A stretch of DNA of 64,000 nucleotides from Aquisphaera giovannonii. Lineage in GTDB: Bacteria; Planctomycetota; Planctomycetia; Isosphaerales; Isosphaeraceae. The translations under genes and the position numbers were made by a program. The first letter of the stretch is position 1. Each line of letters begins with the position of its first letter. The DNA is taken from positions 1,302,001-1,366,000 of the forward strand of contig NZ_CP042997.1 of assembly GCF_008087625.1 (NCBI RefSeq), in the 5' to 3' direction. The notes under the pieces were generated by a model. That model ran no database searches, was not told the origin of the DNA, and saw only the letters and a list, made by a program, of their open reading frames with translations. Positions 30,299 to 50,566 of the stretch are shown here, one piece after another.

Positions 30299-31156
30299 TC
30301 AGGACCTGATGTGGACGATCGTGCCGCCCATCCGCACGGGCGTGAAGGTGTCGGTGATCCCGAACAGGCTCTCGGCCGCCCCGATCATCAGGAAGCCCCC
30401 GGGGATCAGGGCTCGATGGAGGCCCTGGCAGAGGCGGCGCCGGTGACCCTCGTCGAAGTAGATGAGGACGTTGCGGCAGAGGACCAGGTCGAACGTGCCC
30501 AGGCTGGGCAACGGATGATTCAGATTGAGGCGGCGGAACTCGATGGCTCGACGGAGCCGATCGTCGATCGCCCAGGCGTCGCCCATCGGCCTGAAGTATC
30601 GATCCCGCTGCGCGGGGGGGACCCCGCGGGCGACGTCCGCCGCGGTGTATCGGCCTTCGCGAGCGATCGCCAGCGAGGCCTGGGAGACGTCCGTGGCGAG
30701 GATCGGGAAGTCGTCCAGCGTCAGCCCGAGGCCCGGCCGCGAAGCCAGGAAATCGGCCACGGCCATGGCCACGCTGTAGGCCTCCTGCCCCGTCGCCACG
30801 GCCGAGCACCAGATGCGGGCCCCGGGATCGGCGAGTCGCGTCGAGGCCCGCCTCTCGCGCAGGCGTCCGGCGAGGGCGGGGACGATCGACCGCCGGAGCT
30901 CCTCGAAGGGGTGGCCGTCGCGGTTGAACGACGTCTCCTTGGTGGTGATCGACTCGACGACCTGATCCCTCAGGGGCATGGAATTCGCCCCGCCCAGGGC
31001 CGCCGCGAGGGCGTCGTAGGACGGCAGCGCGTGCTGCCTGAGCACGGGCTCCAGGCGCGAGGTGATGAGGTACCGCTTGTCCTCGCCGATCACGAGGCCG
31101 CAGAGTTCGTGGATGGCCTTCCGGAGCGCCTGGAACGCCTCGCCCGAGAGCCTCAT
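30299..31156 (-). CDS. cheR: CheR-type protein glutamate methyltransferase
   Basis: 285 residues. The N-terminal helical CheR domain (FQALRKAIHELCGLVIGEDK) is followed by TTKETSFNRDGHPFEEL and the SAM-binding region WCSAVATGQEAYSVAMAVA. ILATDVSQASLAIAREGRY and DLVLCRNVLIYFD complete the Rossmann fold. It methylates receptor glutamates in the signalling helices. Its start overlaps the CheB stop by 4 bp, and it is the last gene of the six-gene chemosensory operon. Confidence 0.93.
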   Translation of the reverse strand: MRLSGEAFQALRKAIHELCGLVIGEDKRYLITSRLEPVLRQHALPSYDALAAALGGANSMPLRDQVVESITTKETSFNRDGHPFEELRRSIVPALAGRLRERRASTRLADPGARIWCSAVATGQEAYSVAMAVADFLASRPGLGLTLDDFPILATDVSQASLAIAREGRYTAADVARGVPPAQRDRYFRPMGDAWAIDDRLRRAIEFRRLNLNHPLPSLGTFDLVLCRNVLIYFDEGHRRRLCQGLHRALIPGGFLMIGAAESLFGITDTFTPVRMGGTIVHIRS

Positions 31157-32253
31157 GGGGGTGCCCCGGCCCCCAGGAGGGATGAGGCCCTCGGCCCGAT
31201 GCGGTCGAGTGGCAAGGTCTCGTCGACCAGGTTCGTGGCGACCGCGGCGCCGGGCATCCCCCAGACCACGCTCGTCGCCTCGTCCTGGGCGATCACGTGG
31301 GCCCCCCTCCGCTTCAGGGGGCCGAGTCCCCTGGCCCCGTCGTCCCCCATGCCCGAGAGCACGATGGCGAGGACGGAGCCGGGGTAGGCCTCCGCGACCG
31401 AGCGGAAGAGCACGTCGACCGAAGGCCGGCAGCCGTTCTCCGGCGGATGGTCATTGAGCGCGATGGACGCCCGGCCGGAGTGCCGGCGGACGACCATGTG
31501 CCTGCCCCCGGGCGCGACGTAGGCCGTCCGGGGCTCGACCTGCTCCCCGCTCGAGGCCTCGACGACGCGATAGGAGCACTTCCTCGCCAGGCTCTCCGCG
31601 AAGTAGTGGGTCATGCCCCGCGGCAGGTGCTGGACGATGAAGAGCGGCGCCGAGGCGTGCCTGGTCAACCCCGGCAGGACCGCGGTGAGGGCTTCGGGGC
31701 CGCCCGTGGACGAGCCGATGGCGACGGCCTGGTATCGCCCAGCCGGCCCAGCCGGCCCAGCCGGCCCCGCCGGGCCGGCCGCGGCGGGCCCGAGGGGCGT
31801 GGCCGCCGGCGCGGCTCGCCTCCGCCGGAGCGCGAAGAGGCGGACCTTGTCGTGGAGCTCTCGCCGGAGCGCCGCCGCGTTCGCGGCGGGATCCGGCCCC
31901 TCCGGCTTGCGGATGAAATCGAACGCCCCCCGCGAGAGGCCCTCCACCGTGATCGAGGCGCCTCGCTCCGTCAACGCGCTGACGAGGAGGATCCCGACGG
32001 GGGGACGGTCGGGGCGGGACACGTCGAGCCTCCGGATCTCGTCCATGGCCTCCAGGCCGCCGCGGCCCGGCATGGTGAGGTCGAGCGTGACCAGGTCCGG
32101 CGGCGATTCCCGCACGAAATCGACCGCCTTCTCGCCGCTCCAGACCGAGCCGACGACCCGCACGCCCGGGAGTTCCTTGAGCGCGTCCTCCATGGCCGAG
32201 CGGAAGATCCGGGAGTCGTCGACGATGAGGACTTGCAGCGGCTCGGGGGTCAT
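31153..32253 (-). CDS. cheB: CheB-type receptor methylesterase/deamidase with receiver domain
   Basis: 366 residues. Receiver domain at 5-125 with phosphoacceptor Asp58 ([14 protein letters not shown]). A Gly-Pro-Ala repeat linker follows (four GPA-type units, residues 155-170). The catalytic domain spans about 172-355, with Ser in [11 protein letters not shown], His in [16 protein letters not shown] and Asp in [12 protein letters not shown]. It removes methyl groups from the receptor when phosphorylated by the CheA hybrid. It overlaps the MCP gene and cheR by 4 bp each. Confidence 0.95.
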
Positions 32254-34349
32254 GCGGCGGTTGGATCCTCGGCGGTGTGCCCGGCCTGTCCGATGAGGTT
32301 CCGCAGGGTCCTGCTGATGCGGTCGAGCTGCTCGGCGGAGCCGTGGACCCTGGAGGCCGAGTCGGCGGTCGCCCGGGAGGTATCCCGGACCCCGTGGATG
32401 TCCGCCGAGATGCCGCTGGCGGCCTTCGCCGCCTCGGCGACGTTCCGCGAGACGTCGGTCGCCCCCCTCGCCGCCTCGGACACGTTCCGCGACATGTCCC
32501 CCGCGGCCTTGGCCACCTCGGCGATCGAGCGGGCGATGTCGCCGACCCCCCTGCTCGCCTCCGAGACGTTCTGGGAGATCATCGTCGCCGCCCGCGTCTG
32601 CTTCTCCACCGACTCCGAGATTCTACCAGAAGAGGCGTTGATCTCCCTGATGATTTGCGACACGCCCTGGATCACCTGGACGGACTTCCGCGTGTCCTCC
32701 TGGACGCCCTCGATCCGCCTCGCGATGTCCTCGGCCGCCTTGGCGCTCTGGTTGGCCAGCTCCTTGATCTCGTGGGCGACGACGGCGAAGCCCCGGCCGG
32801 CCTCCCCGGCGGAGGTGGCCTCGATGGTGGCGTTGAGCGCCAGGAGGTTGGTCTGGAGGGCGATCATCTTGATGGCCTCGGTGACCTTGCTGATCTCGGC
32901 GCCGGAGCGGTTCAGGAGCTGGATGGTCTCCGAGGCCGAGTCCGCCATGCGGCTCGCCTCGCCGGCGACGTGCGAGCCCTCGCGGACGTCGCCCAGCACG
33001 TCGGCGAACGAGCCGGAGATCTCGGCCACCGCCGCGGAGACGACGCTCACGTTGGCCGCGGTCTGCTCGGCGGCCGAGGAGATCGTGCCGACGTTGATGC
33101 TCATCTCCTCGCTCGCCGAGCTGATCGAGGCGACGCTCGTGCTCATCTCCTCGGCCGCCGAGGCCATCGTGCTGATGTTCGTCGTCAGCTGCTCCGACGC
33201 CGAGGCGACGCTGGACGCCCTCAGGGACGTGTGCTCGCTGTGGGAGAGCAGCCGGTCGGACACGCCGGAGAGGTCGCCCGCCGAACGGGCGAGCTGCGCG
33301 GAGATGCCCCCGACCTCGGTCACGATCCGCCGGGTGATGGAGAACGCGGCGAGCGAGCCCAGCGAGAGCCCCACGAGCGTGACGCCCAGGATCCAGGCCA
33401 GTCCGGTGGTGTAGGCCACGGCGCTGCGGTCGCGGCCGGCGGTCGCCTCCGCGGAGAGCAGCTTGTCGAGGGCGTTGATCCTCGCCAGGCAGCCCTCGGC
33501 CGCGGTCATCGACTCGCCCAGGCTCAGCATCGCGGCCCGGTTGGTGGAGTCGATCTCGGAGAGCTTCAGGATGCCCGCCTGCAGGGAGCGGATCTCGGCC
33601 AGGGCCGCCCCGCCCTCCGCCTGGCCGGCCGCGTCCCACTCGCGCGCCATCTCCAGCCCGGACTGGATCCGGCCCTGCAGCTCCGCCAGCCGCTTCTCCT
33701 CCACGGCCATCTCCTCCCGGCTCGAGGTCTCGATGTGCCTGGCCAGGGCCGGGTACATCCCCAGCAGCGCGGCCTGGACCTCGGCGAGGGCCTTCAGCCG
33801 CGCGACGTCTGCGGCCGAGGGGCTCGGCTTCGAGGCCAGGACGGCGATCCACTTCCTGAGGAGGGAGGCGAGGATGTCGGTCTGTCGCTGGATGTCGCCC
33901 TTCAAGATCCGCTTCGCCTTGAGGTTGGTGTTCTGGACCGCGAGGTCCAGCGCGTCGGAGTTGACCTTGGCGAAGGCCTCGACCGAGCTCCCGAGGGCAT
34001 CGGTCGCCGCCACCTGGCCTTCGGCGAGGTCGGCCGTCGTCAGGGCCTTGAGCCGCTCCAGGCCCGATCGGACGACGGCCAGGAACGATCGCGAGGCGGC
34101 GGCGAAGTTCTTCGACGCCTCGTCGTCCGGAGCGATGACCGCGTTCTTCTGCGCCCGGAGGCACTCCAGCAGCTTGGCCTGTACGTCGGCGAGGACCTCG
34201 CGCTTGACGAAGGTCCGGTCCACGAGCTCGCGGATCTGGGCGTTCATGTTCGCCAGTCGAGTCACGGCGACGAGGCCCACGGTGAACATGGAGGCCATGA
34301 GTATCGCCGCGACCATCAGCATCTTGTGGGAGAGCTTGAGATTCATCAT
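32250..34349 (-). CDS. Methyl-accepting chemotaxis protein
   Basis: 699 residues. A membrane helix ([20 protein letters not shown]) is at the N-terminus. About 285 helical periplasmic residues follow, then a second helix near 322-345 ([20 protein letters not shown]). The cytoplasmic signalling domain has the conserved hairpin tip [20 protein letters not shown] and [21 protein letters not shown] do not see a clear HAMP domain between the second helix and the signalling coiled coil. It is the sole receptor in the operon, so it probably feeds this pathway specifically. It overlaps cheB by 4 bp. Confidence 0.93.
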
Positions 34350-34387
34350 GGGTGCGACCCGGGCCGGCGGGGTTGGAGCGTGATGGA

Positions 34388-34873
34388 TCAGGTGGCATGG
34401 AATGTCGTTTCGACCGCGGCGAGCATCCGGCGGGCGTCGAGGACGACGAGCAGCTCCCCGTCGAGCTCGCAGACGCAGTCGATCAGGTCGCGGTGCCCCC
34501 GTCCCGGGGCCGGGCCCTCTCGGCCCGCACTCGCGAACGGCTCGATGCGAGCCGCCTCGACGGCCCGGATCTCCGAGACCTCGTCGACGATGACGCCGAA
34601 TGCCTCGCCGACCGGCGGCTTGAACAGGACGAGGCGGTTGTCGGGGGCCGCGGCGGCGGGCGGCATGCCCAGCAGCCGTCGGATGCTCAGCGCCAGGTGG
34701 ATGTGCCCCCGGATGTTCACCAGGCCGAGCACCTCGTCCGGCGCATGGGGCACTCGCGTCGTCGGGGCGGCGGGCGTGACCTCCTTGACGTCGAGGACGT
34801 CGAAGCCGAAGAGCCGGCCGTCGAGCCGGAACGTGCAGAACATCCGACCGGAGGGGGCCGCGGCGCTCGTCAT
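34388..34873 (-). CDS. cheW: CheW-like adaptor
   Basis: 161 residues forming a single CheW fold ([21 protein letters not shown] ... split here by length; then [20 protein letters not shown] and [13 protein letters not shown]). It bridges the receptor and the kinase. The ATG at 34873 overlaps the CheA-hybrid stop by 4 bp. It lies 38 bp before the MCP gene. Confidence 0.92.
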
Positions 34874-37800
34874 GCGTGGGCCTCCTTCGCCGCGAGCAAC
34901 CCGGCGACGGCCCGGATCAGGCGGTCCTGGTCGAGCTTGACCTCGTAGGCGTCGTAGCCGCATTCCCTCGCCCTGGCCTCGTAGGCGGGCCCGCTCAATG
35001 ACGTGAGCGCGAGCATCGGGATCTTGAGGCCACGCCGACGCACCTCCCGGGCGAACTCCCAGCCGTCCATGACGGGCATCTCGATGTCCGAGATGATCAG
35101 GTCGTAGGCCCCGCCCGCGGTCAGCAGGGCCGACGCCTGCTCCCCGTTCGCGGCCGTCTCGACGCGATGGCCTTCCGATTCCAGGCGGCGTCGGATGAGC
35201 TCCAGGAAGAACGGCGTGTCGTCGACCACGAGCACCCGCCCGGGGGGCCGCCCCTCGGATGCCGGGCGCGGGCCTCGCGGTTCGAAGGCGGCGAGGAGCC
35301 GGCGCACCAGTCCCTGCATGTCCAGGAAGAGCGTCATCCGCCCGCGGACGATGGCGGAGCCGATGACCCCCCGGTCGCACTCCGGGTGGGGTTGCAGGTC
35401 GACCGCGAGCGATTCCGTGTCCACGATCCTCGTGGCGAGGATGGCCACCGCCCGGGGGGAGGACTTCGGCAGGATCAACGCCGCCCGGGGGGCGGGCCCC
35501 GGGGGCGGGGAGCCCGGGGACGAGGCGGCGATCACCTGGTCGAGCCGCAGGAGGCGCGTCGGCAGGCCATCGACCGCCACGAACTCGTCCTCCCCGACGC
35601 GCTCGATCCGGTCGAGCCCGGCCATCTCCACGCGACGGATCTCGAGGAGCGGCAGCGCGAATTGCTCGCTCGGGCCGTACTCGAACAGCAGGACCCGGTG
35701 GGCCGGGGGGGCCCCCCCCTCGCCCCGGCGGGCCGTCGCGGCCGGCCTCGTCGGTTCGAAGCCCGGCCGGGCATGCTCCAGGATCCCGGCCGCGTCCGCG
35801 ATGAGCGCGACGCGGCCGTCGCCCATGATCGTCGCGCCGGAGAAGATCCGGACCCGCTTGATCGACGGGTGCATCGGCTTGACGACGACCTCTTCCGTGC
35901 CCCGGATCTCGTCCACCACCAGCCCGTAGCGGCGGCCGGCGGACCGCAGGACGAGGATGTAGGCGACCCGCCGCGGGTCGGGGCCCTCGTCGTGCCTCGC
36001 CGCCACCTCCGCCCCCGCCCCCCCCGCGAACGGGCGAGGCCGGCCCAGCACGTCGGCGAGGCGGACGACCGGCAGCAGGCGGCCTCGCAATCGGTAGACC
36101 TCGGAGTCGAACGCCAGCTCGACCCGCCCCTTCAGCCCGGGGTGCAGGCAGATCGCCTCCTCCAGGTCCCGCTGGGGTATGGCATACGGCTCGCCCCCGG
36201 CCGCGACCATGAGGCAGGGGATGATGGCGAGCGTCAGCGGCAGGCGGAGGATCATCGCGGTGCCGAGGCCCGGCCGGGAGTCGATGGTCAGCGTCCCCTC
36301 GAGCTGCTCGATGTTCGTCTTGACCACGTCCATGCCGACGCCGCGGCCGGACAACTCGGAGACCGACCGGGCGGTGGAGAAGCCCGGCAGGAGGATGAGC
36401 GAGAGCAGGTCGCGGCGGGACATCCGGTCGAGCTCGGCCTCGGACCGCAGCCGCATGGCCATCGCCTTCGCGCGCACGGCTTGAGGGTCGATGCCGCGCC
36501 CGTCGTCCCGGATCTCGATCCGGATCTGGCCCTCCTCGTGCGCGGCCGTGAGCTCGATCCGGCCGACCTCCGGCTTCCCCGCGGCGATCCGATCGGCGGG
36601 CGGCTCGATGCCGTGGTCGACGCTGTTGCGGACCAGGTGCGTGAGGGGGTCGGACAGTTGCTCGAGGATCGTCTTGTCGAGCTCCACCTCCCGGCCGACC
36701 ACCGCGACCTCGACCCGCTTCCCGAGCTGCCGGGCGAGGTCCCGGACCACCCTGGGGAACCTGCCGAAGATGTTCCCGATCGGCTGCATGCGGGCCCGCA
36801 GCACGGTCTCCTGGATCGCCGAGGTGACGGCATCGAGACGCTGCACGATGGGGCGCACCCGGTCGTCCTCCCGCTCGAACGCCAGGAGCGACTGGTTGCG
36901 GACCAGCGTCAGCTCGCCGGCCAGCGTCATGAGCCGGTCGAGCAGCTCCACGTTGATTCGCAGCGAGGCCGAACGGTCGGCCTCCGGCGCCGGGACGCGG
37001 CCGCCCGTCGTCGGCTGCCGAGGCGCGGCCGGTGGCGCCGGCCCCGGCTGCGCCCGACCCGGCTCGCGGGCCTCCGCGCCCAATCCGAGCCGTCGCCGGA
37101 CCTCCGCTTCCCCGAGCGCCGTGCGGAGCCTGCCGTGCCAGCGGACCGGGCCGCGGCCCAGGCCGGCGGCCAGGTCCGCCGGGCCGATCTCCAGGCCGGC
37201 GGCCTCCGCGGGCCCCACGCCCGCAAGCTCGGCCAGGAGGGGGCCGAGCGTGAGGCCCCGGCCGCGCGACCATTCGTCCAGGTCGATCTGGAGCGACACG
37301 GCCGCGTGCGGCTCGCGGGGCGTCGATTCGTCCGCCAGGCCGAGCACACGACGGATCTCTTCCCGCGGCACGTTCGAGCCGAGCCTGAACTCCAATCGCA
37401 GCGGCCCGGCAGGGAGCCCCTCGCGGAGGTCCCCGACATCGGCGACCAGCACGGGCGCGACGACCGTGCCGAGGTGAGCGAGCGTCGCGAGGTATTCGGC
37501 CAGGCGACCGGATCGCGGGCGGGCCGCCTCGCGCAGGTCGATCGCCCAGGAATCCGCGGCATCCGGCGCGGGGCGTCGGACCTGTTCCAGCCGCGTGAGG
37601 ATCCCCCCCAGGTCGGCGGAGTTGCTGTTCTCAGGGTCGTCCACGAGCGTGGCCAGGCGGTCGCCCGCGGCGATCAGGCGCTCGACCGCCGGGGCTCGCG
37701 GGCGCTCGACGCGATCCCGGACCACCTCGAGGGCCGACTCCATGGCGTCGGCGAGGGTGCGGATCGCCGTGTAGCCGAGGAATCCCGCATCCCCCTTGAT

Positions 37801-37944
37801 CGAGTGCACCGCCCTCAGGCAGCGGTCGGCCTGCTCGCGGGGGTCGGCATCCGCGCCGCCCTTCTCCAACGACAGGAGGGCCTGCTCCAGGGTCGCCAGA
37901 TGCTCCCTGGCCTGGGCCACGAACTCGTCCGGGCGTGCCGCCAT
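34870..37944 (-). CDS. cheA: CheA-type hybrid histidine kinase: Hpt, HATPase, two CheW domains, receiver
   Basis: 1,024 residues. Order: Hpt domain with phosphorylatable His47 ([14 protein letters not shown]); a poorly conserved region to about 330; dimerisation helices ([20 protein letters not shown]). Then the HATPase with [16 protein letters not shown] (N box), DDGRGIDPQ (G1) and [17 protein letters not shown] (G2). A CheW-like regulatory domain follows ([19 protein letters not shown]), then a second CheW-like unit near 740-880. The receiver domain at about 903-1020 has Asp in [16 protein letters not shown]. The fused receiver and absence of CheY suggest an alternative-function system (Wsp/Frz style) rather than flagellar chemotaxis. 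It starts 3 bp behind the Hpt-STAS gene. Confidence 0.93.
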
Positions 37945-37947
37945 GGC

Positions 37948-38766
37948 TCACCCGCCCTCCCTCGCCGAGCCGGCCTGGGCCTCGTAGGAGCCGCCCAGGC
38001 CCGTCACGCCCAGCACCGTTTCCATCTCGTCGGAGACCCCCGCCAGTTGGAGCCTCGGGCGGCCGAGCTGCGCGGCGTGTCGGGGCATCGCGGCCAGGAG
38101 CGCCAGCCCCTGCACGTCCAGGTCCCTCGTCGAGCGGAGATCGAGACGGATCGGGTCGCAGCCTCGCTCCTGGGCGTCGAGGTACTGGCGGCGGAGCCGC
38201 TCCGCGGCCGCCTCGTCGAGCAGCTCCGGGGCGACGATCGTCGCCGGGCTGGGCGCGTCCGCCCCCCGGAGGGCACCGGGGGATGCCGGGCTGCGGCCGG
38301 CGGGGGCCGGGGCCGGCGTGGTGGCCGGCCCCGGCCGATCGCCGATCCGGCCTCCGCCGGCGAGCAGCGATTCCAGCTCCGCGACGAGGCCCCGCGCGGG
38401 GCCGTCGAATCGGCCCATTAGGTCGACCTGGGGATCCTTGCTCGCCGCCGCGATCTTCCCCATCAGGTCCACGCCTCGCAGCAGGACGTCGATCCCCGCC
38501 GGCGAGAGGGTGAGCCGGCCCCGCTGGGCCGCGACGAAGCAGTCTTCCATCGCGTGGGAGACGCCCACCATCGCGTCGACGCCCACGACCCGCGCCGCCC
38601 CCTTGATCGAGTGGGCCGCGCGCATCATCGCGTCGAGCCGCGAGATATCTTCGGGCGACCTCTCGAGCGCGAGCAGGGCGGCGGAGAGCGCCTCCGAATG
38701 CGCCTCCACCTCGGACCGGAAGAGCTCCATCAGCGAGAGATCCTCGAGGCCGCTTCCGCTGCTCAT
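37948..38766 (-). CDS. Hpt-STAS fusion protein, first gene of chemosensory operon
   Basis: 272 residues from ATG 38766. Residues 1-125 form an Hpt four-helix bundle with His52 in RAAHSIKGAARVVG, the phosphotransfer motif. A Pro/Ala linker covers 140-170. Residues 172-268 look like a STAS domain: TIVAPELLDEAAAERLRRQ, then IRLDLRSTRDLDVQGLALL, where the residue that is Ser/Thr in anti-sigma antagonists lies in DVQGLALLA. It may pass phosphate or a binding signal between the kinase and a STAS-type regulator. Three base pairs separate it from the CheA hybrid. The combination is uncommon. Confidence 0.82.
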   Translation of the reverse strand: MSSGSGLEDLSLMELFRSEVEAHSEALSAALLALERSPEDISRLDAMMRAAHSIKGAARVVGVDAMVGVSHAMEDCFVAAQRGRLTLSPAGIDVLLRGVDLMGKIAAASKDPQVDLMGRFDGPARGLVAELESLLAGGGRIGDRPGPATTPAPAPAGRSPASPGALRGADAPSPATIVAPELLDEAAAERLRRQYLDAQERGCDPIRLDLRSTRDLDVQGLALLAAMPRHAAQLGRPRLQLAGVSDEMETVLGVTGLGGSYEAQAGSAREGG

Positions 38767-43076: not shown

Positions 43077-44807
43077 ATGAGGCCCGCCATGCCGAGAGGG
43101 ATCGAGTTCGCCAGGGCGCGCGACGCCATCGCGTCGGCCTTCTCGCCGACGCAATTCGACCGGTTCCTCCTGGAGACGTTCGATTACCGGCGCGTCCACC
43201 ATGTCCAGGACGGCCCCTTCCTCGATGTCGTGACCGGCGTCCTCGAGGCGTTCGCGCGCGAGGGGCGGGACCTGAGCCTCCTGTCCGAGGTCGCGGCCGC
43301 CCGCCCCGACCGGCAGGACATCCAGGCGATCCATCGCCGGTACGAGGAGTCGCTCCGGCTTGAGCTCCCCGGGCCGTCGCCCGCCACCGGGGCCGATCGG
43401 TTCCTGCGATTCCTGGCGGAAGCCTTGCCGGACCGGGCGGACGTGGAGCGGGTCCTGGCGACGATCGGATCCCGGCTGCCCGGGGGATGGCCCTGGCAGG
43501 CGGGCCATCGAGAGGGCCTCGCCCGGCTGATCGCGGACGCGGACCGGGAACGGTGGATCCGCCTGCTCCTCTTCGGCACGCACTACGACCGCCGGGGCCG
43601 GCCCGGGCTCATGGACCTCGGCGAGGGCGCGTTGACACGCTGGGAGCGGGAGGGGATTCGGCTGGCCGAGAGGCTGGACGAGCTCGGCGTGGATGCGGCG
43701 GCCGCGGCGGACTGCTACGACCGCGCCCTGACGGCGCTCTCGTACCGGGCGTGCCGGCCTCCGGGCGCGAAGCCGACCCTGCTGCTCGTCGCCCATGCCG
43801 TCGTCGCGGCCCAGGAGGCCTGCTCGTCCGACCGGCCGGGACCGGGCGACGATCGGCCCCTCCAGCGATTCCTCCGGCACCTCGCCGCACGCGGCGAGGC
43901 GATCGCGTCGGGCCTCGAGGAGCTTCACGAAACCCTGGCCGCCCGCTGCGGCTGGGACGGGGGCCTTCGCGAAGACGCGGGCCGGGACGGCGATCGTTAT
44001 TCGGTCGTGGTCGAGCTGAAGGACGGCGCGGCGTGGTCGCCCGGCACGCCCTACTGGAGCCGGCGCGCCTGGCTCTATCGCCACGGGGCCGGCACCTGGG
44101 CGCGGCTGGATGACGAGCTGGAGGACCGCACCGAGACGGCCGCGACGATGCCCGGATACCTGAGCGCGATCTGCGACCGCGTCGCCCGCCTCACCGGCCA
44201 TGACGTGAGCCAGGAGCTGATCCCGTTCGAGATCTTCCTGCCGCGCAGTCGCCTCGGGCATGGCATCGACGAGTGGCAGGTCAGCGTGATGGGGGAGTTC
44301 CTGGTGGAGCTGGGATACCAGACACCGGTCGTGGTCCGGTCCCTCGAATCCGGGGAGGCCCGGAAGGCGAAGCTGGCGGCCCGCTGGAAGGGGCTCCGCG
44401 ACGCGAGGTCGTGGCACGCCGAACGGCACCTGGCCTTCAAGGAGCGGGGCGGAGATCCGACCGCCCACCTCAAGGAGTTCCTGGCGCGTCGGGACCTCCA
44501 GTGCGTGGTCCTGAAGCAGCCCTTGCCGCCCGACGCGGACCCCGCCCGGGAGTTCCCGTGCGTGCTCGCCGCGATCGCGGCGGGCGTCCCGGCGATCCTC
44601 TGGGCCCGCGACCCGTCCGTCGTGCCGAGGCTCTCGGAGGAGGTCAGCCGGTGGGCCGAGGGGCCGCCCAGGCGGCTCCCCGAGCTGGTCCATCAGCTCC
44701 GACAGGCGGCCGACGAAGGCGGCGATCCCCGCTGCCGGATCACCCTCTTCTTCGAGAACGGCGATTACGCATTGCCCCCGGAACACCAGGCCTCGGAGGC
44801 GCGCTGA
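43077..44807 (+). CDS. VMAP protein with N-terminal effector-associated domain (EAD1)
   Basis: 576 residues. Residues 5-95 match the EAD1 pattern: FSPTQFDRFLLETFDYR, then HVQDGPFLDVVTGVLEAF and AREGRDLSLLSEVAAARP, a small helical adaptor that pairs with effectors carrying the same domain. A helical middle region covers about 100-300. From about 307 the VMAP C-terminal domain is clear: YSVVVELKDG, AWLYRHGAGTWARLDDE, LIPFEIFLPRSRLGHGIDEW, LGYQTPVVVRSLESGEARK, W-KGL and GVPAILWARDP. By family knowledge VMAP is the hub of VMAP-MoxR-vWA ternary conflict systems. It abuts the MoxR gene with no gap. The ATG at 43089 is the alternative start. Confidence 0.85.
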   Translation: MRPAMPRGIEFARARDAIASAFSPTQFDRFLLETFDYRRVHHVQDGPFLDVVTGVLEAFAREGRDLSLLSEVAAARPDRQDIQAIHRRYEESLRLELPGPSPATGADRFLRFLAEALPDRADVERVLATIGSRLPGGWPWQAGHREGLARLIADADRERWIRLLLFGTHYDRRGRPGLMDLGEGALTRWEREGIRLAERLDELGVDAAAAADCYDRALTALSYRACRPPGAKPTLLLVAHAVVAAQEACSSDRPGPGDDRPLQRFLRHLAARGEAIASGLEELHETLAARCGWDGGLREDAGRDGDRYSVVVELKDGAAWSPGTPYWSRRAWLYRHGAGTWARLDDELEDRTETAATMPGYLSAICDRVARLTGHDVSQELIPFEIFLPRSRLGHGIDEWQVSVMGEFLVELGYQTPVVVRSLESGEARKAKLAARWKGLRDARSWHAERHLAFKERGGDPTAHLKEFLARRDLQCVVLKQPLPPDADPAREFPCVLAAIAAGVPAILWARDPSVVPRLSEEVSRWAEGPPRRLPELVHQLRQAADEGGDPRCRITLFFENGDYALPPEHQASEAR

Positions 44808-45791
44808 ATGAACGACTGGCACATCTTCCACGGCACCCCCCGCGAGCCGCACGCGGAGGGCCATCGCCTCCGGGACCTGGCGCCCCCCTGGCGGAGGTTC
44901 GGCGGGGCCGCCGAGACGCGCGGGCGCACCTACCTCCCCTCCCCGGAGGAGGTCGCCCTGGTCAACGCGGCCCTGTACCTCCGGCGGCCGATCCTGGTCA
45001 CCGGCCCGCCCGGCTCCGGCAAGTCGTCGCTCGCCTACGCGATCGCGGAGGAGCTGGCGCTGGGCGAGGTCCTGAAGTGGCCGATCAACTCGAGGTCCAC
45101 CCTGGCCGACGGCCTCTACCACTACGACGCCGTGGCACGGCTCCGCGACGCGCAGCTGGCGCCGGCGGCCTCGGCGGCGCCGCGGGCGACGGACGACATC
45201 AGCCCGTACCTCCGGCTCCAGTGGCTGGGGACCGCCCTCGCCTCGGGGTCGCCCCGCGTCGTCCTGATCGACGAGATCGACAAGGCGGACATCGACCTGC
45301 CCAACGACCTGCTGCACATCCTGGAGGAGGGCTCCTTCGTCATCCCGGAGCTCCAGCGCCTCGCCGAGGCCCATCCCGAGGTCCCCGTGCGGACCTGCGA
45401 GGCCGGGCGGGACGAGTCGATCGTCATCCCCGCGGGCGTCGTCCGGTGCCTGTCGTTCCCGATCATCGTCCTGACGAGCAACGGCGAGCGCGACCTGCCC
45501 CTGGCCTTCCACCGCCGCTGCCTGCGGCTCGATATCCAGCCCCCGGACGGCGACCGCCTCCTCCGCATCGTCGAGTCCCACCTCGGCGAGAGCCTGCAAC
45601 TGGACGCGGCGGCTCGCGAGCGGATCGGCCGGCTCATCGACGAATTCCTGAACCTCAGGAACCGGGGCAAGGTGATGGCGACCGACCAGCTCATGAACCT
45701 GGTGTATCTCCTCTTCCGGGGGGAGATGCGGGACGGCTCGGACGAGGCCCGCGGGATCCGGGACCTGCTCTTCCGGGGCCTGGACGAATGA
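44808..45791 (+). CDS. MoxR-type AAA+ ATPase of the ternary system
   Basis: 327 residues. Walker A GPPGSGKSSLAYAIAEE near 66-74 and Walker B VVLIDEIDKADIDLPNDLL near 150 are followed by a sensor region PIIVLTSNGERDLPLAFHRRC (Asn sensor 1, Arg finger side) near 222. A helical lid lies at the C-terminus. MoxR ATPases remodel or load client complexes using ATP and usually work with a vWA protein, here the next gene, whose ATG overlaps this stop (ATGA). Position between VMAP and vWA is the diagnostic order of the ternary system. Confidence 0.92.
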   Translation: MNDWHIFHGTPREPHAEGHRLRDLAPPWRRFGGAAETRGRTYLPSPEEVALVNAALYLRRPILVTGPPGSGKSSLAYAIAEELALGEVLKWPINSRSTLADGLYHYDAVARLRDAQLAPAASAAPRATDDISPYLRLQWLGTALASGSPRVVLIDEIDKADIDLPNDLLHILEEGSFVIPELQRLAEAHPEVPVRTCEAGRDESIVIPAGVVRCLSFPIIVLTSNGERDLPLAFHRRCLRLDIQPPDGDRLLRIVESHLGESLQLDAAARERIGRLIDEFLNLRNRGKVMATDQLMNLVYLLFRGEMRDGSDEARGIRDLLFRGLDE

Positions 45792-48700
45792 GCCCCGGGG
45801 GCGACGGGGCCGCCCGCTTCTCGGGACGCGACGCGGCCGCCCGCGAGATCGCGCGGGGGATCATGGAGTTCGCGGCCTCCCGGGGGTTCACGCCGTCCCA
45901 TGAGGACCTGCTGGACCTCCTCTGGCTGGCCGCGCACCTGCCGGCGGGGCATTCCTTCGCACCGGCCGCCGAGGGCGATCTCGCTCGCGCGCCGGGGGTA
46001 AGGCCGGCCCCGCGGCCCGCGGCGGAGCCCGTCCCGAAGGGGCCATCCGACTCGCCGGCCGATTCTCCGGCCGACGCCCTCTCCCCGGGCGAGGGCGCGA
46101 GCACGGAGGCCCCGGACGGGGGCCGGGTGCCGGTCTTCCCGCCCGGCGCGTCCCGGGGCGGCGAAGGGCCCGCGCTCGTGCTGCCGTCGCCGCCGGTGCT
46201 GCCCAGCGAGCGGGCCTTCCTCCAGGCCTGCCGGCCGTTGATGCTCCGGGGGCCCTCCCGCGCCCGGCTTTGCCCGGACGTGGAGGAGACGGCCCGGCGA
46301 TGGGCGGACGAGGGGATCGTCGAGGTCGCCCTGAGGCCCGCCACCGAGCGCCGGGTGGAGCTCGTCGTGGTCCTCGACTTCGGGCCGTCGATGGACATGT
46401 GGCGGGGCCTGATGCGGGAGGTGGCGCGCGCCTTCGTCGCCAGCGGCGGATTCCGCCGCGTGACCGTCGCCTGCATGCTCCGGGACGGCGGCTCGCCCCG
46501 GCTGGTCGACCCCCGCCACGCGGCCGACCGCACGGCCCCGGCGATCCTCCCGGGATGGTCGTCGGGGGCCGGCTCGCGACTCCTCCTGATCGTGACCGAT
46601 TGCATCTCGCGGCACTGGCGGGGCCCGGAGATGGGGCGGCTCCTCGGCCGCTGGGCGAGGGGAGGCGCGTCGGCCCTGCTCCAGGTCCTCCCGGAGCGGG
46701 AATGGTCCCGCACGGCGCTCGGGCGGGCCGAGTTCCGCCGGGCCGTCGCGTCCTCCGCACTCGCCCCCAACCGGCACTATCGCGAGGCCCGCGACCCCGC
46801 CGACGAGCTCGACCGGTGGCTCCTCGAGCAGGAGGCGACGGCCGTCATCGCCCCGGGGGCCCCCCTGCTCCCCGTCGCCCCCCTGCTCGACGTCGCCAGC
46901 CTCTCCCGTCTCGCCCGCTTCCTCGGCGGCCGGACGAGCCTGCCCGCCCCCTGCTTCCGGCTGAAGCCCGGCGAGGAGGCCCCGACGGTCGGCTCCCTCG
47001 ACCCGTCGCAGGCGCTCGACGCGTTCGTCCGGAGGGGGTCGAAGAGGGCTCGCGAGCTGGCGATCCTGCTGGCCGCGTCGCCGGCCGTCTCGCTGCCGAT
47101 CGCGCGGATCCTCCGCCGCAATTTCATGGGGCACGCGGGGGGGCCGGGGCTCGAGGCCGAGATCTGGACGAGCGGGCTCCTCGAGCTCATGGAGGAGCCG
47201 CTGAAGGACGATCCGGACCAGGTGCTCTACCGCTACCGCGCGGGCATCCAGCGCCGGCTCCTGGACGGCTCGCCGCGCGACCTGCGCCAGCGGGTCATCG
47301 AGGCGACCTCGCGATACCTGGAGGAGCATCTCGGGAGGCTCCGCGGGTTCGCCGCCATGCTCGCGGACCCCGCCAGCCACGCCGGGGGGCTGGAGACCGG
47401 GCCCGCCAGCGACCCCATGGCCTGGGTCGCCGCGGAGGTGCTCCGCCGCCAGGGGGGCGACCTCGCCCGCGTCGCGGCCTCCTACTCCGGCTCGTCCGCA
47501 CGTGCATCTTCCGCTGTCGCCGACCTGGCGAAGCGTGCCGAGCGCTATCTCCATTCCGGAGAGCATCTGACAGGCCGCTTTGCCTGGTCGCCCGACGGGG
47601 CCACGCTCGCCGTGCCGACCCTGGGCGGCCGCCTCGTGCTCGTCAATGCCGCCGACAACTCGCGGGCCTCGGTCCGCGCGAGCCGCCAGGCCGCACCTCA
47701 GGCGGCCTGGTCGCCCGACGGGACGGAAATCGCGATCGCGTGCCTGAGCCGGGTGGTTCGCGTCTTCAACAAGGACCGGCAGCAGCTCTATGAGCTCTGG
47801 GGGCACCAGAGTGGCGTCTCCGCAGTCGCGTATTCGCCGGAGGGGCGGTATCTCGCCAGCGGCACGATGGGAGGGTCCGTCCGGCTCTGGAGGCGGGCGG
47901 ATCGCGAGCAGATCAATTTGAAGCACGTCGCCACCCGGGGCGAGGTCCGGTCGCTGGCCTGGCTTGACGAGGAGCGGCTCGCCGCGGGATACGGGGACTG
48001 GACCGTCATCTACCGGGCGGGGCCGACCGGGCTGATCCTGGACCGGACCATCGAGGCGGCCGGGACCGCGCTCGCGCCCTGCACGCCGGCCGTCGCCGGC
48101 TGGCTCGAGGCCGAGGCCCATCTCGCGATCGGGCGGACGAACGGGGAGATCCAGTTCTGGCGATCCGGCGCGAGCGAGCCGGCCCGTAGCCTCTTCCCCG
48201 GCCAGGGCGCGGTGACGTCGATCGCCGCCTCGACGGACGGCCGCCTCCTCGCCACGAAGGGCAGGGATGGGACCGTCGCGGTCGTCCTCCTGGCCACCGG
48301 GAAGGTCGTCGCGTCGATGAGGCTGCCGCCGACCGAGTCGCCCTACGGCACGGTCGCCTTCCGCCCCGGCACGTCCTCCCTCGCCGTCGCCCGGCAGGAT
48401 GACCGCGAGGTCGCCCTCCATGCCCTCGACGAGACGCCGCCGCAGGAGACGGGACGGCTGCGGATTCGGGTCGTCGGCTCGGGGCCGGTCCAGACCGGTT
48501 TCCAGGACGCCTGCCGGCGAATCGGTCGCGAGATCGCCTCGCGGCATCACGAGCTCGTGATCAGCACCGCGAACAAGTCCACGGCCGATTACCACGCGTT
48601 CCTGGGCTACCTCGAGGCCGCCGAAGGGGGCGGCAGGGTCACCCTGGTCCGCGTCATGGACGCGAGGGGAGTCCAGCATCTCGAGACCCTGCGGTCCCTC

Positions 48701-50566
48701 GCCAACCCGGCCGGGAGCGGCGAGGGTGCCTTCCGAGACGCGGTCGTCCGGGAGCTGATGCGCGCCTTCACGCCGGAGGCCGTCCGCGCCCTGATGCCGG
48801 CGTGGAGTCGGCCGCAACCCGTCGGCGACGATCGGCCGGTCGCCGAGCCTTCCTTCGACCTCGCTTCCATGATGAAGTTCGATCCCAAGGAGCTGATGAC
48901 CCTGCTAATCGCCGCGGCGGATCGCCTGCCCGCGAATCGCGTACTCGCCGCCCTGCGAGACCGGGCGCCGCTCGCCTCGGCGATCGAGCTCGTCGTCGAG
49001 CCCATCGCGGAGGCGAGGAACAGGAACGGCGGGGAGGTCCAGGCGTTCGGCCTGTCGGACGCGGCGATCGCGATCGGGGGCGAGCGGGGGACCCTGCGGG
49101 CGATCTCGATCGCCGAGGAGTTCGAGATCCCGATCGTCCCTCTGCCGCAATTCGACGGCGCGGCGCGTCAGGCGTGGCAAGCCGGCGCGGGCGTTTCCTC
49201 GGAGCAGCCCGCCGACATCCCCGCATGGCGGGAGAGGCTCGGCGCCGGCCAGGCGATCGAGGCTCTCAGCGTCGCCGACATCGACGCCGTCCCGGTCCTG
49301 GCGGTCGACATCCTGGAATCGGCATCGGCCGTCGAAGGTGACCGGCCGTGGCCCCGCGTGGTGCTGCTCGAGGACGCGTCCGGCGTGGAGCCCCTCTTCG
49401 CGACGGGATTGGCCATCGACGGCCGCCGGATCCTGAGGCTCACTCTGCCGGCCCCGCCGGACCCGGCCGAGGAGGGGTGGCGCCTCCTCGTGGTCCATGA
49501 CGTCGAGGCCGGGCCCACAGGCCCCGACGCGAGGCGGCCCGCCCGAGAGGGGCGCTGGCAGCGGCGGATCCGGGGGGCCGGGCTGGAGTGGTTCCGATCG
49601 GAACCGCCGCTGGAGGGGTTCGGTGAGCCGCCGATCTTCGAGGCGATCGGCGACGATGTGCTCCGGGACGCCCCGGTCCGGCTGCGGGTCGCGCGCCGGT
49701 CCGGAGGCGAGACCATACGCGGCGTCGTCGAGGGGATCGACCCCGAGACCGTGCGCATCTGGTGCGACCGGCCGCTGCCTCCGGAACTGGCGGGCGCACC
49801 GGTCGTGATCCGTTCGTACGGCCGGCTCGTCGTCATGGGGATGGCCGTGGACATCGGGCTGCAAGGGGAGCCGGGCTCCTGCGTGGCCCTTCGCCTGACC
49901 GGGGAGATGATCGACCAGATCGTGAGTCCCGACGGCCGGGACGCGGCGGCAAGGCCGCGGTCGCCGGCCGCCGGGCTCGGCGTCGTGGTTCCCCGCTGGG
50001 TCCGGGTCGTGGGGTCCGGCCGTCATTACCTGTCCACCGCCGAGCGCGAGGCGGCCCGATCCGTCGGCCGGATCCTCGCCGACCTCTCCTACGGCCTGAT
50101 CACGGGGGGGTGGCCCGGCGTGGATTACGTCGCCGCCCAGGCCTTCTGGGAGGTCCTCCTGGACCGGGATATCCCGTCGCCCGCCGCCCGCCTGGTCCAC
50201 GAGGTTGCACCCGGCGGCAAGCCGGACTTCCCCGACGGGACCGTCGTCGAGGCCGGAAGCCCCGGCGGAGAGGGCCGGCCGGTAGCGCCGCGGGAGCACG
50301 CGATCGTGCTCATCGGAGGCTTCGAGGCGTCCAGGCGAGTCGCCGACGAGGGGAGGGCGAGGGGCATTCCCGTCTTCCCGATCCGGGGCACCGGCCAGGA
50401 GGCGGATGCCCTGCATGAGGATATGCTCGCGTCATGGCGCGTCGTGCCGGGGCTGCCCGCCTCCCCGGTGGAATTCGAGGAGGCGGCGAGCTGGCCCGGG
50501 GGCTTCCCGGACCTGCTCCGAAGCCTCCTCGCGGGGCTCCCCGCGGGCGACCAGGGGCCCGCATAG
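45788..50566 (+). CDS. vWA - beta-propeller - SLOG - SLOG sensor/effector protein
   Basis: 1,592 residues. Order: helical N-terminus and Pro-rich linker to 150; vWA domain of the SAV_2336-like type (ELVVVLDFGPSMDMW, MIDAS-like Asp197-x-Gly-x-Ser; LLLIVTDCISRHWRG). Then winged-helix-like region 420-540 and WD-type beta-propeller blades 595-885 (FAWSPDGATLAV; AVAYSPEGRYLASGT). First SLOG domain from 897 (VVGSGP; AIAIGGERGTLRA at 1097-1102). A region 1165-1370 may be a degenerate trypsin-like fold. Second SLOG from 1409 (VVGSGRHYLS; TGGWPGVDYVAAQAF; LIGGFEASRRVADEG at 1510). SLOG domains bind or process nucleotide-derived ligands in known conflict systems. Start overlaps the MoxR stop by 4 bp. 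The last gene of the operon. Confidence 0.85.
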   Translation: MSPGGDGAARFSGRDAAAREIARGIMEFAASRGFTPSHEDLLDLLWLAAHLPAGHSFAPAAEGDLARAPGVRPAPRPAAEPVPKGPSDSPADSPADALSPGEGASTEAPDGGRVPVFPPGASRGGEGPALVLPSPPVLPSERAFLQACRPLMLRGPSRARLCPDVEETARRWADEGIVEVALRPATERRVELVVVLDFGPSMDMWRGLMREVARAFVASGGFRRVTVACMLRDGGSPRLVDPRHAADRTAPAILPGWSSGAGSRLLLIVTDCISRHWRGPEMGRLLGRWARGGASALLQVLPEREWSRTALGRAEFRRAVASSALAPNRHYREARDPADELDRWLLEQEATAVIAPGAPLLPVAPLLDVASLSRLARFLGGRTSLPAPCFRLKPGEEAPTVGSLDPSQALDAFVRRGSKRARELAILLAASPAVSLPIARILRRNFMGHAGGPGLEAEIWTSGLLELMEEPLKDDPDQVLYRYRAGIQRRLLDGSPRDLRQRVIEATSRYLEEHLGRLRGFAAMLADPASHAGGLETGPASDPMAWVAAEVLRRQGGDLARVAASYSGSSARASSAVADLAKRAERYLHSGEHLTGRFAWSPDGATLAVPTLGGRLVLVNAADNSRASVRASRQAAPQAAWSPDGTEIAIACLSRVVRVFNKDRQQLYELWGHQSGVSAVAYSPEGRYLASGTMGGSVRLWRRADREQINLKHVATRGEVRSLAWLDEERLAAGYGDWTVIYRAGPTGLILDRTIEAAGTALAPCTPAVAGWLEAEAHLAIGRTNGEIQFWRSGASEPARSLFPGQGAVTSIAASTDGRLLATKGRDGTVAVVLLATGKVVASMRLPPTESPYGTVAFRPGTSSLAVARQDDREVALHALDETPPQETGRLRIRVVGSGPVQTGFQDACRRIGREIASRHHELVISTANKSTADYHAFLGYLEAAEGGGRVTLVRVMDARGVQHLETLRSLANPAGSGEGAFRDAVVRELMRAFTPEAVRALMPAWSRPQPVGDDRPVAEPSFDLASMMKFDPKELMTLLIAAADRLPANRVLAALRDRAPLASAIELVVEPIAEARNRNGGEVQAFGLSDAAIAIGGERGTLRAISIAEEFEIPIVPLPQFDGAARQAWQAGAGVSSEQPADIPAWRERLGAGQAIEALSVADIDAVPVLAVDILESASAVEGDRPWPRVVLLEDASGVEPLFATGLAIDGRRILRLTLPAPPDPAEEGWRLLVVHDVEAGPTGPDARRPAREGRWQRRIRGAGLEWFRSEPPLEGFGEPPIFEAIGDDVLRDAPVRLRVARRSGGETIRGVVEGIDPETVRIWCDRPLPPELAGAPVVIRSYGRLVVMGMAVDIGLQGEPGSCVALRLTGEMIDQIVSPDGRDAAARPRSPAAGLGVVVPRWVRVVGSGRHYLSTAEREAARSVGRILADLSYGLITGGWPGVDYVAAQAFWEVLLDRDIPSPAARLVHEVAPGGKPDFPDGTVVEAGSPGGEGRPVAPREHAIVLIGGFEASRRVADEGRARGIPVFPIRGTGQEADALHEDMLASWRVVPGLPASPVEFEEAASWPGGFPDLLRSLLAGLPAGDQGPA

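Follow-up and report, generated by a model that had tools for sequence, protein, structure and literature searches.

The operon and its distribution

The window, a stretch of 64,000 nucleotides from the Aquisphaera giovannonii genome, carries on its minus strand a run of six genes (positions 30299-38766) with short gaps or overlaps between their open reading frames, in the order Hpt-STAS, CheA-REC, CheW, receptor, CheB and CheR. The leading gene (37948..38766) encodes a protein of 272 aa, in which Pfam detected an Hpt domain at aa 12-98 (E 3.7e-15) and a STAS_2 domain at aa 183-257 (E 1.6e-8; 35 bits against a cut-off of 29.2). Using Pfam, an AF2 model, Foldseek and an alignment of relatives, we divided the protein into the Hpt domain, with the H-box histidine placed by the alignment at His52, a linker (about aa 139-170) and a STAS domain (about aa 175-257). 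The AF2 model (mean pLDDT 80.1, pTM 0.50) consists of a bundle resembling a CheA P1 domain, a low-confidence linker and a STAS fold, the relative orientation of the two domains being unfixed. Foldseek matched the bundle to the P1 domain of Thermotoga CheA (1tqg; TM 0.90 by target, E 2e-3).

The second gene (34870..37944) encodes a CheA hybrid kinase of 1024 aa. Pfam and motif boxes revealed its own P1 (Hpt) domain, H-kinase_dim, HATPase_c, two CheW units and a C-terminal receiver; the P1 histidine, the N, G1 and G2 boxes and the receiver Asp and Lys are present in all 11 loci aligned. The remaining minus-strand genes were assigned by Pfam to a CheW coupling protein (34388..34873), a chemoreceptor with an N-terminal 4HB sensor (4HB_MCP_1) and an MCPsignal domain (32250..34349), a CheB methylesterase with a receiver (31153..32253, also recognized by motifs) and a CheR methyltransferase with CheR_N and CheR domains (30299..31156). 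No HAMP match was found in the receptor at E<=1, and no TPR match in CheR. These results bear out the initial annotation, which had described a six-gene chemosensory operon headed by an Hpt-STAS fusion, with a kinase carrying two CheW-type units and its own receiver and a receptor lacking an obvious HAMP domain.

The same annotation had noticed no CheY, diguanylate cyclase or flagellar gene nearby, which agrees with our Pfam scan of 12 predicted flanking genes. These lie in the interval from about 24.6 to 48.8 kb, reaching about 6 kb beyond one end of the operon and 10 kb beyond the other, with two small low-scoring ORFs left out. Among these 12 genes, six of which gave no Pfam match and the last of which was scanned in part, CheY, GGDEF and flagellar proteins were all absent. 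Flagellin, the sole flagellar family searched in the whole genome, was absent as well. The operon thus holds the CheA, CheW, MCP, CheB and CheR set of the alternative-cellular-function type, without flagellar output as judged by flagellin. Within the window we also observed an EAD1/VMAP-C protein, an AAA ATPase and a WD40-repeat protein in a row (43077-50566, the last gene scanned in part), which resemble a conflict (defence) system.

When the Hpt-STAS pair was searched for in other genomes, as had been suggested for a check, 13 distinct loci were found in Planctomycetota. Five belong to the family of the window: the window itself (G000), its congener Aquisphaera insulae (G002), G010, G012 and G026. 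Others come from other families (G039, G053, G455, G471 and L082, the last being the same locus as G453), and L078, L079 and L080 are without family placement. The order Hpt-STAS, CheA, CheW, receptor, CheB, CheR is kept in 12 of the 13 loci, window included, and because it recurs in this way the six-gene arrangement is not a matter of chance. In the thirteenth locus, G471, CheB and CheR were not found within the roughly 4 kb covered downstream of the receptor. The CheR gene of the Gemmata-like locus L082 (16758-17575) matches in two pieces, perhaps through a frameshift or an assembly error.

The fusion was detected in at least 5 of the 45 genomes sampled from the window's family, at least 4 of 95 genomes of the family of G053 (G053, G453, G455 and G471) and at least 1 of 392 genomes in an even sample of the phylum, namely the window's own; all three counts are lower bounds, part of the candidates having been scored (6 per genome in the sample of 392). 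The five family genomes with Hpt-STAS, out of the 45, are also those with a full-length orthologue of the operon CheA. A literature search for Hpt-STAS, STAS-Hpt and 'HPt and STAS', with a coverage that lay mostly outside subscription journals, returned no paper on such a protein, and none was noticed among the papers listed for related subjects.

Ancestry of the Hpt domain and of the kinase

Next to the operon CheA, which has a P1 domain of its own, the Hpt domain of the fusion is of another kind. The 13 Hpt domains share a mean identity of 52.0% with 13 WspE-type P1 domains, 27.2% with the P1 domains of the operon CheAs and 25.1% with four other P1/Hpt domains used as a control; this comparison leans toward the Hpt because 11 of the 13 Wsp P1 domains were fetched by similarity to it (11 of its 74 non-Hpt-STAS loci), and the operon CheA P1 domains are the fair control. 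For every one of the 13 Hpt domains, the best Wsp P1 is closer than the P1 of its own operon CheA. In the tree, the Hpt domains and the WspE-type P1 domains form a single group with support 99/98. The Hpt of Hpt-STAS thus bears a WspE P1-like signature and belongs with the P1 of WspE-type kinases, not with that of its own CheA. Tandem P1 matches in one frame were also seen in Wsp-like CheA genes, three in G027 (G027:C1:6017934-6019472) and two in G010 (L178, 15474-16352).

The kinases tell a different story from the Hpt. In midpoint-rooted trees with 13 WspE-type kinases for comparison, the 13 operon CheA cores cluster together (100/97) beside four sister CheAs (92/86), and the WspE-type kinases form a separate group (100/100). 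The operon therefore has the WspE-type P1 of the Wsp system (WspA-F, WspR), but placed on a STAS protein apart from the kinase, and the kinase core is not of the WspE type. Besides this P1, it shares with Wsp a non-flagellar character and, in relatives, a WspR-type receiver gene beside the operon. It differs in having one CheW gene where Wsp has two, a CheR without the TPR match expected of CheR-TPR, and, in relatives, a neighbouring regulator with a PP2C or cyclase output and not the GGDEF of REC-GGDEF. We considered a plain assignment as a Wsp operon and dropped it, as the kinase core, the number of CheW genes and CheR do not fit. Genes of the wsp type have been reported from other planctomycetes, as far as the accessible part of that paper goes (PMC6461901).

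We next compared the operon with those of the sister kinases, which are the four best-scoring non-orthologous relatives (G010, G011, G020 and G027). A C-terminal receiver is absent from all four sister CheAs examined. In each sister operon a stand-alone CheY separates the receptor gene from CheB, and no Hpt-STAS gene leads the operon. The Hpt-STAS operons, in contrast, carry a receiver on CheA in 13 of 13 cases (11 judged by the aligned Asp, the other two, G455 and G471, by how far the match extends), and in the 12 that have both receptor and CheB there is no room for a CheY between them. Compared with these sisters, then, the Hpt-STAS operon is without a CheY and carries both a CheA receiver and Hpt-STAS, the combination that a His-Asp-His-Asp relay would call for. 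Being midpoint-rooted, the trees leave either the sister type or the Hpt-STAS type as the older state.

WspR-type regulators in the relatives

In 8 of the 13 loci, a gene with a WspR-type receiver lies head-to-head with the Hpt-STAS gene. Its output domain is a PP2C phosphatase in seven, identified by Pfam in L078, L079, L080 and L082, by similarity and PP2C motifs in G053, and by similarity in G455 and G471, where the G471 copy ends at the contig end. In the eighth (G039; L181, 14067-15200), Pfam identified the receiver as joined to a class III adenylate/guanylate cyclase in place of PP2C. The receiver of the L082 protein is 58.6% identical to that of Pseudomonas moorei WspR. With rough gene calling in 11 loci, the WspR-type receiver gene was a neighbour common to six and all other neighbours were common to at most three, setting aside five flanking genes that the window has in common with its congener G002. 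The initial annotation had named an output gene of the CheY or GGDEF kind, shown to be the target of the operon, as a finding that would speak against its reading. The relatives go toward an output gene as the target; the link is a genomic one, short of proof, and it is absent at the window.

No regulator adjoins the Hpt-STAS gene in the window or its four family members (0 of 5). Each of these five genomes has a REC-PP2C homologue elsewhere, with 50-57% identity. It lies within a Wsp-like operon in G010, beside CheB and apart from the Wsp-like operon in the window's genome (at 541 kb) and in G002, and within a different chemosensory operon in G026. In G012, a genome that has Hpt-STAS and no Wsp-like P1, it stands alone. 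Because the neighbouring CheB looks like the component that the Wsp-like system lacks, the REC-PP2C protein of the window's genome may not serve the operon of the window.

Co-occurrence was analysed in 37 genomes of the family (G000-G036), with Hpt-STAS itself excluded from the P1 count. REC-PP2C was present in 23 of 23 genomes with a WspE-type P1 (>70 bits, a line chosen after the list was seen and applied to the P1 score, not to membership of a Wsp operon). Of the 13 genomes without such a P1, with G012 set apart, three had REC-PP2C (G024, G032 and G033) and ten did not (Fisher p 1.1e-6, a guide value only as the genomes are related). These three genomes have REC-PP2C although both a Wsp-like P1 and Hpt-STAS are absent from them. 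A phylogeny of REC-PP2C intended for assigning copies to systems was indecisive, with weak support and long branches.

Related arrangements were observed elsewhere. A second chemosensory operon in the window's genome (L053, 5244-15540; G000:C1 at about 2.259-2.270 Mb) encodes REC, REC-PP2C, a stand-alone STAS protein in which the serine described below is absent as well, a stand-alone Hpt, CheA, a receptor, CheW, CheR and CheB, and forms an unfused parallel of the window system. In L135 (12908-15571) and L144 (12506-14859), Wsp-like operons are each followed by two WspR-type receivers, one of them REC-PP2C-like; the second is cyclase-like in one (NaphS2) and HD-GYP-like in the other (a planctomycete MAG), as judged by sequence.

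The STAS domain and a proposed phosphorelay

The C-terminal part of the fusion has the STAS fold of the SpoIIAA/RsbV antagonists, on which the first reading of this DNA depended. Besides the Pfam match, a profile of the STAS parts matched SpoIIAA, RsbV and MlaB in a PDB profile search, and Foldseek aligned the modelled domain with SpoIIAA (1th8_B; TM 0.66 by target, E 8e-3) and RsbV (6m36_D; TM 0.73 by target, E 2e-2). The D-S-S-G serine of these antagonists is missing. At the positions of the paired SpoIIAA serines, one of which is the phosphosite, Ser occurs at neither place in any of the 13 loci. V-Q stands there in the window and the other four loci of its family, A-V in L078, L079 and L080, P-T in G053 and G039 (with Thr at the second place, 2 of 13), P-A in L082 and in G455, a near-copy of it, and A-A in G471. 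This argues against a classical phospho-switch, and we dropped the canonical switch as the leading reading. A STAS protein can work without such a switch, as MlaB does.

The usual partners of such antagonists are HATPase_c_2 proteins (anti-sigma kinases). They are present in each of ten genomes searched, and the 100 kb to either side of Hpt-STAS hold none of them as far as its contig reaches, several contigs being short and L078-L080 lying outside the search. The nearest match in the window's genome is 101 kb away and below the cut-off; E<=1e-5 was applied in the nine other genomes. The initial annotation had expected output through a STAS/anti-sigma type partner rather than a motor. A non-motor output of the operon is likely, and that part stands; the reading of the STAS domain as itself the anti-sigma output is not supported by the serine positions or by the HATPase_c_2 search. 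Most likely, the STAS domain docks or dimerises the adaptor.

We propose, at roughly even odds (a probability of about 0.5), a relay from the CheA histidine through the CheA receiver and His52 of Hpt-STAS to a WspR-type receiver effector, with STAS as the docking module. In this scheme the array of receptor, CheW and CheA would control autophosphorylation of CheA on its own P1, and CheB and CheR would provide adaptation. The phosphate would then pass from the P1 to the C-terminal receiver of CheA, from there to His52, and from His52 to the receiver aspartate of a WspR-type regulator, which would act through a PP2C phosphatase or, in one relative, through a class III cyclase. A WspE P1-type Hpt would in this way give a non-Wsp kinase access to WspR-type receivers. 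Each transfer step is inferred; taken together, the adaptor most likely hands phosphate from the operon CheA to such receivers. The candidate target in the window's genome would be the REC-PP2C protein at about 541 kb on the same contig, although this assignment is uncertain and the protein probably also serves the Wsp-like system of that genome. That G012, with Hpt-STAS and no Wsp-like P1, keeps an orphan REC-PP2C speaks for the relay, although with the weight of a single genome, which carries another CheA too. In known systems, STAS proteins are targets of PP2C phosphatases of this kind, and because of this partner switching may occur one step further downstream.

Known systems offer partial parallels. 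In the HptB-HsbR-HsbA system of Pseudomonas aeruginosa, a separate Hpt also feeds a receiver-PP2C regulator, and the HptB to HsbR step is a known parallel (PMC6482189, in its accessible part). The corresponding pairing here comes from neighbourhood in relatives, REC-PP2C lying beside the Hpt gene in 7 of 13 loci and not at the window. The Hpt here is instead fused to STAS within a chemosensory operon, and the four REC-PP2C proteins that we scanned have no counterpart of the kinase/anti-sigma domain present in HsbR; CrsR, like HsbR, carries an anti-sigma domain (PMC6482189, same portion). The Che1 locus of Shewanella, with CrsR and CrsA, similarly has a STAS protein and a regulator of the receiver-PP2C type alongside its chemosensory genes, but CrsA is a separate antagonist and the locus has CheY and CheD (PMC9855816, from the text available). 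In Campylobacterota, a link from a REC-PP2C-kinase protein via STAS to a chemoreceptor has been proposed (PMC9239204, accessible text). In the portions available of these papers and of PMC12654446 and PMC6461901, an Hpt-STAS protein is not described.

CheS of rhizobia, likewise a STAS protein of a chemosensory operon, attaches to CheA and directs the flow of phosphate among CheYs (PMC12654446, available portion). This precedent speaks for the relay, and it also suggests a different role. By analogy, STAS could bind CheA while the Hpt acts as a phosphate sink or shuttle among CheA-REC, CheB and other receivers, tuning adaptation, and the lineage of the window would have no dedicated effector. 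The missing serine, this precedent and the five family loci without an adjacent regulator are in keeping with such a distributor. We nevertheless consider it unlikely, as a WspR-type effector gene adjoins Hpt-STAS in the majority of the loci described above and kinases that feed WspR-type receivers carry an Hpt of this same type; CheS, moreover, is a single-domain protein of a flagellar system with two CheYs (PMC12654446, same portion).

CheA could also phosphorylate Hpt-STAS directly, bypassing its receiver. The CheA core would then act on STAS-docked Hpt-STAS to feed WspR-type receivers, the P1 of CheA would feed CheB and its receiver would be a mere phosphate sink. Two unlike P1-type domains in one operon, and kinase boxes present in the 11 aligned loci, would suit this; the relay fits better with a CheA receiver that co-occurs with Hpt-STAS and is absent in the four sister kinases, which makes the direct route quite improbable. 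Least probable of the readings weighed here, by a small margin, is that STAS is itself the output, acting on an anti-sigma or similar partner once His52 is phosphorylated: its fold is close to SpoIIAA and RsbV, its profile also matches MlaB, which works without such a switch, and HATPase_c_2 proteins exist elsewhere in the ten genomes, but the serine is absent, no HATPase_c_2 match was found less than 100 kb from Hpt-STAS along its contig and the most shared neighbour is a receiver-effector gene.

Returning to the relay, we tentatively suggest, at somewhat less than even odds, that a Wsp-class P1 was cut loose, tagged with STAS and plugged into an unrelated CheA, in an array that lost CheY and gained WspR-family effectors. 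The sister operons with CheY would then be the likely before-state and the Wsp-like operons the likely donor. If this is true, the output of a chemosensory array may change in evolution through an added adaptor with the right phosphodonor surface, the kinase being unchanged, with CheY dropped and a receiver placed on CheA. In planctomycetes, a chemoreceptor could then plausibly be linked to signalling by PP2C or cyclase.
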